This document shows, piece after piece, positions 15,569 through 20,851 of a stretch of 60,586 nt of DNA. The notes beneath the pieces were generated by a model, which saw only the letters and a program-made list of their open reading frames with translations, did no database searches and was not told the origin of the DNA. The stretch is from the NCBI GenBank assembly GCA_028718225.1, contig JAQUMI010000004.1:1-60586 (forward strand), written 5' to 3'. Both the position numbers and the translations under genes were made by a program. Positions within the stretch are counted from its first letter, which is position 1. Each line of letters starts with the position of its first letter. Source of the stretch: Candidatus Omnitrophota bacterium. GTDB taxonomy: Bacteria; Omnitrophota; Gorgyraeia; Gygaellales; Profunditerraquicolaceae.

Positions 15569-17482
15569 TTAGCTTCTCCTGCCTGCCGCCGAAGAAAACC
15601 TTTCCAAATCCGTGTGCGGAAAGAATAAAGCCGCCATGTATTCATCCATATAGCCCGCATCAACCGATAATTCAAAATAGGTAATTTTACGCGCGAGCTC
15701 TTCGGATACCCTAGTCGCCTCTGCAGATAAAAGCATCTGCCGTGCTCCGGCCAATGCACTGTTACCGATAAAGAAAAACCTCTTCCTCTCTAAATCCGGG
15801 AGCAGGCCGATCTTTATCGCGCTATTTATATCCAGAGAAGTGCCAAATCCTCCAGCAATAAAAATCTTTTTTACATCGCTGATTTTAAAATCCATATGTT
15901 TAATTAAGACCGCGCTCGCCGAATAAATAGCAGCTTTGGCCCTTTTTATGTTTTCGATATCAGCTTCAGTAATAACTATATCCTCTCCCGAACCGGAATC
16001 TTCTTTAAAAACCACTACAAATTCCTTTCCGTTCTCCCCCTTCCTTATTCGCTTATGCTCAACGGCCTTGATCTTGCCGCTTCTGTCCATAACGCCGGCC
16101 GTAAGCATTGCAGCAATTAAATCAATATAACCCGAACCGCAAATACCCGTCGGCCGGGTGTCGGCGATAGTAGAAAACTCAAGTGAAAAATCTCCCGGCT
16201 TGATCTTTACTTTCTGGATGGCGCCTCCGGAAGCGCGCATACCGCACTTTACTCCGCTTCCTTCAAACGCCGGGCCGGCAGAGGCAGCGCAGGCAACCAA
16301 AAAATCCCTATTACCGAGCGCAATTTCGCCGTTAGTCCCGATATCGATCAAAATACTCAAATCCCTTTCCTTATATAAACCGCTGGAAAGCACCCCGCTA
16401 GTCGCATCTCCTCCGACATAACTTGATACCCCCGGGACGCAGGACAAGAGCCCACGCGGATTAATAATTATTCCGGCTTCCGATGCCCTTAAAACCGGCA
16501 GGAAATTTGCCGTTGGCACATACGGCTCGCGTCTGATATAAGTAGGATCTACCCGCAGCAATAGATGTATCATTGTCGTATTTCCTGTGCAAACAATACA
16601 GGTAACATCGTTTAAATCCACACTATGTTCAAGGGTCAGTTCCTTGATGATCTGGTTCATCGTCTGGGTTACCGCAGCGTGTAATTTTTCCATACCCTCT
16701 TGCTGGCGGGCGTAGATAATGCGTGTAATCACATCCGCGCCAAAACTGGCCTGTTTATTATAGGTTATCCTGGTGCCTGATATTTTTTTAGTGTTTAAAT
16801 CCACTAGTTGTCCGGAAATAGTCGTCGTACCTATATCAAAGCAAAAACCAAAGTTCTTGTTTGAAGTATCTCCCGGCTCAACCAAAACAATTTCTACCGT
16901 ATCATTTCTCTTGCCGAGGGTAACCGTAATCTTCCAATCGGAATCCCGCAGCAGTTCCCCCAGCTGCCTGATATTGCTTAAACCGGTCTGCATAACCGGT
17001 AGATCTTGCGCTTTGCGGATACCGCGGAAAAGGCGGTCCAGGTCGCTTAAGGAATCATTTAAATTAGGCCGGGGTAATTCCAGATATAATTTTGTGGCCA
17101 GCGGCGAATGCTTAAATAGCTTGCCGCCTAAAACCGCTTCCTGCGACTCTACCTCTTCGGAAGCTGAATAAATCCCCTGAAAGCCTGAATGCATCTCCAT
17201 TCTTGATTCAACGGGGACTTCTACCTCCAAATCGCTATGCACGGTAGTAAGGCAGGCTAAATATATATTGTGTTTTCTCTCTTGCGCCTCGATTATGCCG
17301 GTAGGCTGAGTGAGGACCTTGCCTTTTTTCAGAATAACCTTGCATCTGCCGCAGACCCCATCTCCTCCGCAGTCCGACTTTATATATACCCCGCAGGAAA
17401 TTGCCGCCGAAAGGATAGTCGTGTCCTGGGCTACCTCCACTGCTTTATTATCCGGATAAAACGTAACCTTGAATTTATGCAT
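15569..17482 (-). CDS. acsV: Reductive activator of the corrinoid protein (RACo)
   Basis: RACo re-reduces inactive Co(II) corrinoid protein to Co(I) with ATP. The 637-residue protein has an N-terminal [2Fe-2S] ferredoxin domain with Cys38, Cys44, Cys47 and Cys77 (CGGDGVCGRC), a linker domain, and a large C-terminal ASKHA-type ATPase region: FCFDIGTTTISGQLVDL, SYVGGDATSGVLSSGL, ILIDIGTNGEIALGN and FIAGGFGTSLDINSAI. This is the DUF4445 architecture. It directly follows acsC without a gap and precedes cooC, as expected for co-expressed corrinoid-protein genes. Confidence 0.93.
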   Translation of the reverse strand: MHKFKVTFYPDNKAVEVAQDTTILSAAISCGVYIKSDCGGDGVCGRCKVILKKGKVLTQPTGIIEAQERKHNIYLACLTTVHSDLEVEVPVESRMEMHSGFQGIYSASEEVESQEAVLGGKLFKHSPLATKLYLELPRPNLNDSLSDLDRLFRGIRKAQDLPVMQTGLSNIRQLGELLRDSDWKITVTLGKRNDTVEIVLVEPGDTSNKNFGFCFDIGTTTISGQLVDLNTKKISGTRITYNKQASFGADVITRIIYARQQEGMEKLHAAVTQTMNQIIKELTLEHSVDLNDVTCIVCTGNTTMIHLLLRVDPTYIRREPYVPTANFLPVLRASEAGIIINPRGLLSCVPGVSSYVGGDATSGVLSSGLYKERDLSILIDIGTNGEIALGNRDFLVACAASAGPAFEGSGVKCGMRASGGAIQKVKIKPGDFSLEFSTIADTRPTGICGSGYIDLIAAMLTAGVMDRSGKIKAVEHKRIRKGENGKEFVVVFKEDSGSGEDIVITEADIENIKRAKAAIYSASAVLIKHMDFKISDVKKIFIAGGFGTSLDINSAIKIGLLPDLERKRFFFIGNSALAGARQMLLSAEATRVSEELARKITYFELSVDAGYMDEYMAALFFPHTDLERFSSAAGRRS

Positions 17483-18811
17483 TTAAAGATTCTTTAGAAA
17501 TGCGGGGATGCCGGCTGCCTCTTTCGGCCCGACGATGATCTCAAACCCCGATGCATCCTGTAGCTCGCCGCTCATCACCGCCACATACCCCGGGATAACC
17601 AACTGCTTGTGCGAAACAGCCTCCTTGATCCCGAATTTATTTAGGGATTCGGTAATCTTATGCGGAGTGAATTTCTCTGCTGCCCAGGCAGTCAATACCG
17701 ACATGCCTTCGGTATCCACGCTGATAATATAAGCCGGGATCTTACTTGCCTCTACTTCCCCCAGGACCGTATAGTAAGAAAGGGAAAAATTAGTAGTGAT
17801 TAATACCGGCGATTTGTCATTTACCTGGCCTACCGGATAAAGCTTGGACTCGATCTGAAGCGGTTTTTGCGGGTCAGTATAGATATTCTGCCGAAAAGTC
17901 AGGAGCGCCAAAACCTGCCAGGGCTGGATTCCTTTCATCAGGATGATCCCGGCATACTTGGAAATGTAGCTGGCTGCCTCCTGTACCTCCTCGTAAGGAT
18001 CGTTCTGTTCAATAACAACTAAAGACGGATATCCGAGGCTACGGTCAGATTTTTTTAAGGCCAGCCTGCGCCCTTGCGTCAAATCCCCTATTTTTTCGCA
18101 AATACCTTTCTTCCCTGTTTCTATGACCAGATCGTTTACGCCCTGGCTGGCCAACGCAGCTGTCAATCCAGAAACCTGCTCCAGGCCTTCCCCGTAAACA
18201 ACTAAAGGCACTTTATATTCCTTGGCTAATTTGCCAACCTCATTTAAATTTTCTTTAGTAGCGTGGTAAACCAACGGATTCTTGCCTTTTAAACACTCCA
18301 GCCCCCCTTTTAAAGCCTGCGTATCATTAGTCATTAGGACCAGGGCCAAAGGAGTCTTAACCGACACCAGCCTGACCGTATCAATAAACCTTGCGCTGCC
18401 GTTATTCTGCCGAATAGCCACCAGATTAACATCTAGGGACTGGCCAACGCGTTCAAATTTTAATTGATTAATCTTTTCGAGCTTGGCTTTAATTTCGCCA
18501 TCACTAAAGCTATCCTCCAGGATAAAACCAATCCCCGTAGGCCGGTGAAATTTTTCTTCATGCCTGAACATTACGGTTTCATTGCCGATCTCCAGACGCT
18601 TATCTCCCGAACCGACAGTAATTAACTTTATCGGCGGCAACGCCTGGGCTTCTAACTTTTCCTGGACCTCAGCAGTCAAGTACGGGCATTTGTCAATACC
18701 GACTGCTTTCTTGGCCAATTGCATAGCAAAGGCCAGGCAAGTGGCAAAACCGCATTCACGGCAATTTGTTTTCGGCAGTAACTTATAAATATCCAATCCT
18801 GATAAGCCCAT
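17483..18811 (-). CDS. acsC: Corrinoid/iron-sulfur protein large subunit (CODH/ACS gamma)
   Basis: AcsC carries the [4Fe-4S] cluster and, in its C-terminal region, binds the cobamide that accepts the methyl group. The 442-residue protein has the cluster motif Cys17, Cys20, Cys25 and Cys42 (NCRECGFATC then KCPYL), a TIM-barrel middle part and a C-terminal corrinoid-binding region. An AAGGAG site lies 11 nt before the ATG. It is 14 nt after the FmdE-like gene, so the methyl-branch genes are in one transcript with larB and the bactofilin gene. Confidence 0.95.
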   Translation of the reverse strand: MGLSGLDIYKLLPKTNCRECGFATCLAFAMQLAKKAVGIDKCPYLTAEVQEKLEAQALPPIKLITVGSGDKRLEIGNETVMFRHEEKFHRPTGIGFILEDSFSDGEIKAKLEKINQLKFERVGQSLDVNLVAIRQNNGSARFIDTVRLVSVKTPLALVLMTNDTQALKGGLECLKGKNPLVYHATKENLNEVGKLAKEYKVPLVVYGEGLEQVSGLTAALASQGVNDLVIETGKKGICEKIGDLTQGRRLALKKSDRSLGYPSLVVIEQNDPYEEVQEAASYISKYAGIILMKGIQPWQVLALLTFRQNIYTDPQKPLQIESKLYPVGQVNDKSPVLITTNFSLSYYTVLGEVEASKIPAYIISVDTEGMSVLTAWAAEKFTPHKITESLNKFGIKEAVSHKQLVIPGYVAVMSGELQDASGFEIIVGPKEAAGIPAFLKNL

Positions 18812-18825
18812 AGCGTGCTTACTCC

Positions 18826-19227
18826 TTAGTTTAGGGTAAATATCTTCTGTTTACCTATCTTCAACAATCTCCTGGCAAAATTTTCTGAATTAAGATGGCC
18901 CCTTAGGTTATCCAGTTCTTTTATTAAAGAACCTTTAAGCCTAAGTGTAACCGTCTTGTTATTCTCCGTGTTACGCATAATGACCTTTATCCTGGCGGAA
19001 GCATATTTCCTGATGTTCCCCTTGCCGTAGGTTGCGCCGGTAGATAATTGCAGGCCATCGATAAGGCAGGACTTTGGCTTAATACTGACGCCGTAAACTT
19101 TAACCTCTAATCCAAAATACTTTTTTGCGCCTGTTTTTTTTAACCCCAGTTCTCCGGCAAGAAGCCCTAGAACTAAATACGGACCGAGATGGCCATGGAA
19201 TTTTATCGCTTCTTTTAAAGGGATCAT
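18826..19227 (-). CDS. FmdE-like domain protein
   Basis: This 133-residue protein starts MIPLKEAIKFHGHLGPYLVLGLLAGELGLK, the HGHxGP signature of the FmdE (formylmethanofuran dehydrogenase subunit E-like) domain, followed by CLIDGLQLSTGATYGKGNI. It lacks the C-terminal zinc ribbon of longer relatives. No other formylmethanofuran genes are present. It overlaps larB by 4 nt (ATGA) and precedes acsC by 14 nt, so a link to nickel/corrinoid enzyme assembly is possible but unproven. Confidence 0.75.
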   Translation of the reverse strand: MIPLKEAIKFHGHLGPYLVLGLLAGELGLKKTGAKKYFGLEVKVYGVSIKPKSCLIDGLQLSTGATYGKGNIRKYASARIKVIMRNTENNKTVTLRLKGSLIKELDNLRGHLNSENFARRLLKIGKQKIFTLN

Positions 19228-19892
19228 TTATTAATCAAGCCGGCAAAATATCCCGCACCAAAGCCGTTATCGATATTTACCGTGGCTATTCCGGGAGAAC
19301 AACTGTTTAACATAGTCAATAATGCAGCCAGGCCTTTGAAGTTTGCTCCGTAACCACAACTCGTCGGCACCGCAATCACCGGAACGCTGACTAAACCGGC
19401 GACTAAACTGGCAAGTGCGCCTTCCATCCCGGCAACCACAATGATCACTTTCGCGCTTTTTAAAAGAGCCTCATAATGTATCAAGCGGTGGACTCCGGCT
19501 ACCCCCACATCATATAGCTTTTCCACGCGATTACCCATAGTCTCTAAGGTAGCTACGGCCTCTTCGGCTATCGGCATATCCGCTGTGCCGGCAGAAATTA
19601 CCAGGGCCAGCCCCTTCTTGACAGAAGAGAGAGCCTTTGTTAAAAAACCTGCTTTGGCCAGAGGATTATATTTCAACCCGGGGATCTTCTTTTTGAGATA
19701 AACAAAGGTTTTTTTATCCAGCCTGGTAAGTAATAAATCCTGTTTATTTTTTATTAACTGGCTGGCTATCCTGGCGATATGCTCTCTGGATTTACCCGGG
19801 CAATAGATTACTTCGGCAAAGCCGCGGCGCTTCTTCCTGTCTATATCCACCTTGGCAAATCCTAAATCACAAAAACCGGATTTTGAAGACAT
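19224..19892 (-). CDS. larB: Nickel-pincer cofactor biosynthesis protein LarB
   Basis: LarB carboxylates and hydrolyses nicotinic acid adenine dinucleotide in the first step of nickel-pincer nucleotide synthesis. The 222-residue protein has the leader DIDRKKRRGFAEVIYCPGKS and the AIR-carboxylase-like core LVISAGTADMPIAEEAVATLETMGN, YDVGVAGVHRLI, VVAGMEGALASLVAGL and AVPTSCGYGANFKGLAALLTMLNSCSPG. LarC and LarE are not in the window. The location, directly upstream of the corrinoid-protein genes, is unusual for a lactate-racemase cofactor enzyme. Confidence 0.9.
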   Translation of the reverse strand: MSSKSGFCDLGFAKVDIDRKKRRGFAEVIYCPGKSREHIARIASQLIKNKQDLLLTRLDKKTFVYLKKKIPGLKYNPLAKAGFLTKALSSVKKGLALVISAGTADMPIAEEAVATLETMGNRVEKLYDVGVAGVHRLIHYEALLKSAKVIIVVAGMEGALASLVAGLVSVPVIAVPTSCGYGANFKGLAALLTMLNSCSPGIATVNIDNGFGAGYFAGLINK

Positions 19893-19908: not shown

Positions 19909-20217
19909 TTAACCCCGCAAGAGTATTATAAGCAATAAAATTACCGATAAAGCGGCCAGTATATAAAAATCGTTGAAATAGAAAAAATCACTTAACTTAT
20001 CCCTGGCAGTGCTCTTGCGCAGAGGAGTAATTTTAGGAGAGGTTGGGCGGGATGATTTTTGATACCCGATCACCTGTTCTCTCTTAAATCTTAAATATAC
20101 ACCGCCTACCTTATAGGCCGGCAAGGCGCGGCTTTCAGCTAAATTCATAACTTCTTTTTCTGAAATATTCAGGAGAAGCGACACTTCTCTTACCGTTAAA
20201 AGTTTTTCGTCAGCCAT
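19909..20217 (-). CDS. Membrane-anchored excisionase-type helix-turn-helix protein
   Basis: This 102-residue protein has an N-terminal excisionase/MerR-like helix-turn-helix (residues 5-52: LLTVREVSLLLNISEKEVMN then ALPAYKVGGVYLRFKREQV), a Ser/Pro/Lys-rich linker, and a C-terminal membrane segment (about 80-101, YILAALSVILLLIILLRG). The topology would place the DNA-binding-like domain in the cytosol, tethered by its C-terminus. Its domain is similar to the C-terminal domain of the adjacent bactofilin 15 nt upstream. It may act as a protein-binding adaptor rather than a regulator. No family with known function was recognised. Confidence 0.75.
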   Translation of the reverse strand: MADEKLLTVREVSLLLNISEKEVMNLAESRALPAYKVGGVYLRFKREQVIGYQKSSRPTSPKITPLRKSTARDKLSDFFYFNDFYILAALSVILLLIILLRG

Positions 20218-20232
20218 AATTTTATCCGCCGG

Positions 20233-20736
20233 TTACTTATCGATCTTTCCCGAAGCGACCCAGGAATCGATCGCCTTCCTCTCGAATTTCCAATCGCTGC
20301 CTTCCTTATTGCCCGGAACCCTGCCTGAATTTGCCCATTCCATGATCGAACCAAGATCCACTTCCAGGTACCTGGCCAGCTCTTCGGCATTTAAAAAATC
20401 ATGTAACATCCAACATCGGCCTTCCAGGATTGCGCCCTCGGCGACATTTAACTTAGCCGGATAAATATCCCCTTCCACTATTGCCGAAGGCAGAATAGTT
20501 AATCTCTCTTTAGCGGTTATCCTGCCCTTAACCCTGCCTCCGATAATCACGTTATCCCCGACAATATCCGCGAAAACTGCCGCTGTCGGGCCAACTGTTA
20601 AGTTACCTTTGGTCTCAAGGTTTCCTTCAAATTTACCGTTAATACGTAAATTTACGGCATCTTTAAAAATTAAGCTGCCCTGCATGGAGGCGTCAACGTC
20701 TAAAACTTTTTCTTCCATCTTTTTTTTAAAAGCCAT
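20233..20736 (-). CDS. Bactofilin with C-terminal excisionase-type helix-turn-helix
   Basis: Bactofilins polymerise through a right-handed beta helix and act in cell shape and envelope organisation. Residues 1-105 show the repeat pattern (GSLIFKDAVNLRINGKFEGN, LTVGPTAAVFADIVGDNVIIGG, ILPSAIVEGDIYPAKLNVAEGAILEG). The usual disordered C-terminal tail is replaced by a domain (about 113-163: FLNAEELARYLEVDLGSIME then SDWKFERKAIDSWVASGK) of the excisionase/MerR-like fold. The fusion and the neighbouring membrane-bound version suggest an interacting pair. A strong AAGGAGGTGGGAT site precedes the ATG. Confidence 0.85.
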   Translation of the reverse strand: MAFKKKMEEKVLDVDASMQGSLIFKDAVNLRINGKFEGNLETKGNLTVGPTAAVFADIVGDNVIIGGRVKGRITAKERLTILPSAIVEGDIYPAKLNVAEGAILEGRCWMLHDFLNAEELARYLEVDLGSIMEWANSGRVPGNKEGSDWKFERKAIDSWVASGKIDK

Positions 20737-20808
20737 ATCCCACCTCCTTGATTTTATACTCTTTTCTCCGGCAGCGATACGCGCGGCTTCGCCTAATTTA
20801 TCTCTTTA

Positions 20809-20837
20809 TATATACCAAAAACATAGAGCGATGTCAA
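20809..20837 (-). promoter_or_regulatory. Promoter of the bactofilin-larB-acs operon
   Basis: TTGACA (20832-20837), 17-nt spacer, TATATA (20809-20814), giving a leader of roughly 65 nt. Downstream gaps between the nine genes are 16 nt or shorter, so this promoter could drive the whole block down to acsE. Confidence 0.8.
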
Positions 20838-20851
20838 TATTATAAGGCCGG

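Follow-up and report, generated by a model that had tools for sequence, protein, structure and literature searches.

Two adjacent genes on the reverse strand of a 60,586-nt stretch of DNA from a Candidatus Omnitrophota bacterium (the window, by which we mean the whole stretch analysed) encode a bactofilin fused to a helix-turn-helix domain and a small membrane protein that bears a related domain (Table 1). We refer to them, and to their products, as fus and mem. A sequence-only reading of this DNA had described a bactofilin with an excisionase-type HTH next to a membrane-anchored HTH; both open reading frames are indeed present and their domains score above the Pfam cut-offs, with the fus bactofilin domain (PF04519) at 84.9 bits against a cut-off of 27.9, the fus HTH_17 domain at 33.9 bits against 27, and the mem HTH_17 domain, the only model that matched this protein in Pfam, at 37.8 bits. 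The excisionase model TIGR01764 also matches both proteins, rising above its cut-off in mem only.

Table 1. Features of the fus-mem locus, in window coordinates.
Feature	Position	Strand	Basis or remark
Shine-Dalgarno sequence of fus, AGGAGG	20743..20748	(-)	Sequence
fus, bactofilin-HTH fusion gene, 167 aa	20233..20736	(-)	ORF and Pfam; full-length homologues phylum-wide
fus N terminus, MAFKKK	20719..20736	(-)	Resembles the bactofilin membrane-targeting consensus MFSKKKK (PMC12448750)
fus bactofilin beta-helix domain, residues 11-108	20413..20706	(-)	Pfam; fold matches 2n3d, 6ria, 6rib
fus C-terminal HTH_17, residues 114-163	20248..20397	(-)	Pfam; fold matches BldC, RacA, Xis
mem, membrane HTH gene, 102 aa	19909..20217	(-)	ORF and Pfam; 15 nt behind fus
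mem N-terminal HTH_17, residues 6-54	20056..20202	(-)	Pfam
mem juxtamembrane motif DFFYFNDFYIL, residues 77-87	19957..19989	(-)	Best conserved part of mem
mem C-terminal transmembrane helix, about residues 83-101	19915..19971	(-)	Hydrophobic stretch and modelled helix

Homology identifies fus as a polymerising bactofilin, and polymerisation without nucleotide is predicted for it. The domain searches and structure predictions proposed in the sequence-only reading returned HTH_17 in both proteins, and the AlphaFold model of fus alone (mean pLDDT 84.7, pTM 0.63) consists of a beta helix and a winged HTH (wHTH). In Foldseek, the beta helix led to BacA and TtBac and the wHTH to BldC, Xis and RacA, all with weak E-values, the TM-score of the wHTH to BldC being 0.7-0.8 when normalised by target length. 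Like BacA of Caulobacter and TtBac of Thermus, fus combines a beta-helix polymerisation domain with an N terminus resembling a membrane-targeting sequence (weaker in other classes, where it reads MAKKK or MARKK) and a hydrophobic residue at the F130/F105 position: fus position 104, which aligns to the BacA polymerisation residue F130, is Leu, Phe, Ile, Met or Val in 117/117 sequences. The difference lies at the C terminus, which is a folded wHTH in fus and a short or disordered tail in BacA and TtBac. Descriptions of bactofilins mostly give the C terminus as short, variable or disordered. The sequence-only reading had allowed that this domain might align to a known bactofilin tail; such tails were looked for, and none matched it.

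In mem, a variable linker joins the HTH_17 domain to a conserved juxtamembrane motif, and a single transmembrane helix forms the extreme C terminus; its AlphaFold model likewise shows a wHTH and a C-terminal helix. We call mem membrane-anchored because the hydrophobic C-terminal stretch is kept in all orthologues, and its sequence identifies it as a bitopic membrane protein with a predicted cytoplasmic HTH related to that of fus. The two domains are distant relatives: no BLASTP match links the fus and mem proteins of the window, and profile-profile comparison aligns 50 columns of their HTH domains with 24% identity, a probability of 91.8 and an E-value of 7e-7, which bears out the earlier suggestion that related domains are paired on a filament and on a membrane protein. 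The juxtamembrane motif is better conserved than the mem HTH itself, with Tyr85 present in 117/117 sequences and Phe78 in 115/117. As DF[FLW]YFNDFYIL, it is also kept in mem orthologues of genomes that lack fus. Where dS is measurable, the fus and mem genes are under strong purifying selection, with dN far below dS in both fus domains and in the mem HTH.

To determine the spread of the fusion, we drew on a sample of 384 Omnitrophota genomes, a member of an uncultured phylum of mostly very small-celled bacteria being the source of the window. The fus profile (threshold E 1e-10 or better) matched 340 of them, 22 of these matches being to the HTH only (E weaker than about 1e-20; counted from the table), and the bactofilin fusion is therefore present in about 318/384 genomes (83%). 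Matches with coordinates span both fus domains almost throughout, and the best 30 matches among the relatives of the same order are all full-length fusions. In the window's genome, fus is the single bactofilin. Among 24 genomes without the fusion, 23 gave no bactofilin match whatsoever and the remaining one gave a weak match to a different, secreted-looking protein; G022:C5 is one further bactofilin, for which no HTH matched. As a rule, then, the bactofilin of the sampled Omnitrophota is an HTH fusion or is absent. Of the top 80 loci listed in a scan of named genomes, 77 carry the title Omnitrophota or Omnitrophica, two (L041 and L042) the title "bacterium" and one (L075) the title Candidatus Pacebacteria. 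This last is a metagenome-assembled genome whose fusion is of the Omnitrophota type (77% identity) and lies on a 3.7-kb contig; it is most likely misbinned. A candidate fusion in Leptospira, the best plasmid match (83% query coverage), was rejected, as the aligned region continues beyond a stop codon and the encoded protein lacks an HTH; the Cupriavidus plasmid bactofilin has none either, so that neither of the two plasmid bactofilins inspected carries the domain. In the open-licence PMC literature, we found no paper describing the bactofilin-HTH fusion or the gene pair, and the principal Omnitrophota survey does not mention bactofilin.

Co-occurrence of the two genes across genomes, on which the sequence-only reading had staked its interpretation, proved very strong. 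In 176/178 loci (117 distinct sequence pairs) mem lies directly downstream of fus, on the same strand and in the same order, with a gap mostly below 60 nt; of the two exceptions, L078 is cut off by the contig edge, and in L097 a stretch of Ns separates fus from a mem that can still be made out beyond it. The pair is retained across classes although the flanking genes differ: the class of the window reads tsaD - mgtC - fus - mem - larB - FmdE, while in another class the pair is followed by greA or acpS (tsaD, the larB-type AIRC gene and FmdE were identified by Pfam, and mgtC, greA and acpS were named by eye). The pairing of fus and mem is thus genuine and extends through the phylum, and we found no description of it in what could be searched. 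No natural fusion of the two genes was seen among the loci examined. The 271-aa candidate at L097 was rejected since the gap there is filled by Ns, and the long open frames of G158, G183 and G381 owe their length to extension upstream.

What might such a pair do? How bactofilin filaments are placed, and how they find their partners, is poorly understood. We propose that the mem HTH docks on the fus HTH and so anchors the filament at the inner membrane, or clusters it there, as a bactofilin counterpart of MreB-RodZ, and we give this reading a probability of about 0.5. Once fus has polymerised, its C-terminal wHTH would be displayed along the filament, one per subunit, and the mem HTH would dock on it, perhaps head-to-tail in the way of BldC protomers. 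Mem, together with the putative membrane-targeting peptide at the fus N terminus, would then hold or cluster the filament at the inner membrane, and the anchored filament could place a client at the envelope. The logic would be that of MreB with RodZ, built from unrelated parts.

Several known systems offer precedents for parts of this arrangement. The bitopic proteins PbpC and LmdC bind bactofilin via their cytoplasmic N termini (PMC12448750, PMC10945521), and in Asticcacaulis, SpmX binding requires the C-terminal domain of BacA (PMC12364344). Mem shares with PbpC and LmdC the bitopic topology and cytoplasmic N terminus, but it carries a wHTH and has neither a periplasmic domain nor an enzyme. 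The cytoplasmic HTH of RodZ is important for its interaction with MreB (PMC4047632), and RodZ is the closest functional analogue of mem: both are small membrane proteins in which a cytoplasmic HTH is followed by one transmembrane helix, mem being encoded beside a cytoskeletal filament; the HTH region of RodZ contacts the filament and not DNA, and by analogy the same may hold for mem. The two differ in that the RodZ domain is HTH_25 (XRE type), whereas mem has HTH_17 (excisionase type) without HTH_25, and the two systems differ in that the filament here is a bactofilin and itself bears an HTH. MreB was found in 20/21 relatives and an HTH_25 protein above cut-off in 17/21, including the window's genome. 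Because MreB and a separate HTH_25 protein of RodZ type are present, fus-mem would be a second, parallel system.

The residues at the BldC dimer interface give some indication of how the two domains could meet. In the head-to-tail BldC dimer, Phe21, Val23 and Trp31 pack on Leu11, Ile40, Thr42, Leu43 and Gly44 of the next subunit (PMC5859096). At the BldC "tail" positions fus likewise has hydrophobic residues (Leu, Val/Ile and Trp), and its "head" position 32 is Glu or Asp; the head face of mem retains Tyr30, Val/Ile32 and Gly34. With a hydrophobic tail and an acidic head on fus and a kept head on mem, the tail of fus could meet the head of mem but not another fus, and the pattern is compatible with a one-way fus-to-mem contact. 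The BldC salt bridge Arg22-Glu16' is not reproduced, fus having Glu at position 12 and mem Glu/Asp at position 6. In an AlphaFold model of a fus-mem read-through (TAA as Gln, 6-residue linker) the domains were confident, with a pTM of 0.46 and no resolvable interface. Mean-field covariation had too few sequences to draw on, about 82 effective pairs, and gave a noisy result whose top pairs are not credible. Unpaired mem rows misaligned onto the fus HTH and were left out. From the residue pattern and the conserved pairing, we infer that the HTH domains of fus and mem contact each other. That the phylum as a whole has a second cytoskeleton-membrane coupling in which an excisionase/BldC-type HTH has turned to protein docking on both sides, in one-way head-to-tail fashion, is a tentative extension to which we would give somewhat less than even odds.

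The sequence-only reading had also held that the HTH domains may bind DNA, and the strongest form of that idea is a chromosome tether in which fus, mem or both hold the chromosome at the membrane in the manner of RacA. The wHTH folds match those of BldC, RacA and Xis, and there is precedent for a cytoskeletal or polar scaffold tied to another cell structure in RacA-DivIVA, where the RacA wHTH is of MerR type, and in BacNOP-PadC-ParABS, the Myxococcus bactofilins being described as organising chromosome segregation through PadC-ParABS (PMC5703909). To examine the DNA contacts, we aligned on BldC, whose DNA complex is solved, the HTH domains of fus (117 sequences), of mem (127) and, from the same genomes, of 26 other HTH_17 proteins; these last are the top-scoring ones, putative DNA binders whose residue at position 20 differs between members (Asn, Asp, Arg, Lys, Glu). 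The net charge of the recognition helix is -2.0 in fus and -2.1 in mem, compared to +1.9 in the other 26. BldC Arg30 contacts a base, the R30A change abolishes DNA binding by BldC, and RacA has an equivalent arginine (PMC5859096). At this position fus has Glu (82%) or Asp (13%) and mem has Asp or Glu in 67%, such that the basic recognition helix with its base-contacting arginine, a feature of excisionase/BldC and RacA, is generally absent from both. Judged by these residues, both domains have lost canonical DNA-contact features; although they share the wHTH fold of BldC and Xis, they differ from them in their acidic recognition helices and in their attachment to a filament or to a membrane anchor, and from RacA in the charge reversal of the arginine and in having a membrane protein as the partner. 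The whole fus HTH has a net charge of -3. On the side of DNA, the mem wing is basic (+2.7), and mem has Lys in 71% at the BldC Lys26 position and Arg in 96% at position 38. With acidic recognition helices and the key arginine gone, DNA binding is disfavoured; canonical DNA binding by these domains seems improbable to us, and we regard the tether as equally hard to sustain. The acidic recognition helix weighs also against mem being a membrane-bound transcription regulator of ToxR/CadC-like logic, which a fus scaffold would sequester or cluster. An N-terminal HTH followed by a single transmembrane helix would suit such a regulator, as would the occurrence of mem alone, but mem stops just past the membrane helix and has no periplasmic sensor, and we consider this role very improbable.

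A more serious competitor is that fus and mem serve one pathway without their HTH domains touching, each binding another partner (such as a cell-wall or membrane protein), with gene order reflecting co-expression. It draws on genomes in which mem survives alone. A clear mem-type protein is retained in 10/24 genomes without fus and, where the contig shows its site, has tsaD on one side, accompanied or not by mgtC, and larB or polA on the other; L222 and L223, which are cut by contig ends, were not counted among the additional cases. As mem is kept at the same site in these genomes, it must have a role independent of fus, and this retention counts against a pure anchor role. Of the earlier proposal that mem is a membrane adaptor, the part that stands is its phylum-wide pairing with the filament; that it is solely an adaptor does not agree with its existence where there is no bactofilin. 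The juxtamembrane motif, being more conserved than the HTH and persisting without fus, and the mere 24% identity of the two HTH domains also favour separate partners. Set against this are the adjacency of the genes throughout the phylum despite differing flanks and the presence of two distant copies of one small domain in neighbouring genes, which a shared interface would explain best. On balance, we think separate partners unlikely. In one family (f15; L173, L175, L178 and L181) a longer mem lies directly between tsaD and polA and the genome has no bactofilin. We make no claim that losing fus has relaxed the head face of mem, the picture being mixed (position 30 is His or Thr in some lineages and Tyr in others).

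If docking of mem on fus is correct, the pair would exemplify the diversion of an HTH domain from DNA to a role on a filament. The bactofilin of a whole phylum bears a folded, putative docking domain and is adjoined by a matching membrane protein, and fus-mem would accordingly offer a clean test system for bactofilin-membrane coupling.

The surroundings of the pair in the window have features of their own. No mgtC-like membrane gene lies between tsaD and fus in the window (20737-20851) or in its nearest relative (L002); mgtC is present there in 27/28 other loci of the order (including L003-L016), the remaining one being cut by the contig. Downstream of the pair, at 15569-19892, are genes for a larB-like AIRC protein, an FmdE-like protein and a CdhD-type CO dehydrogenase/acetyl-CoA synthase subunit with an FeS domain, along with a large protein whose N terminus is ferredoxin-like by eye, which suggests a Wood-Ljungdahl-related cluster.
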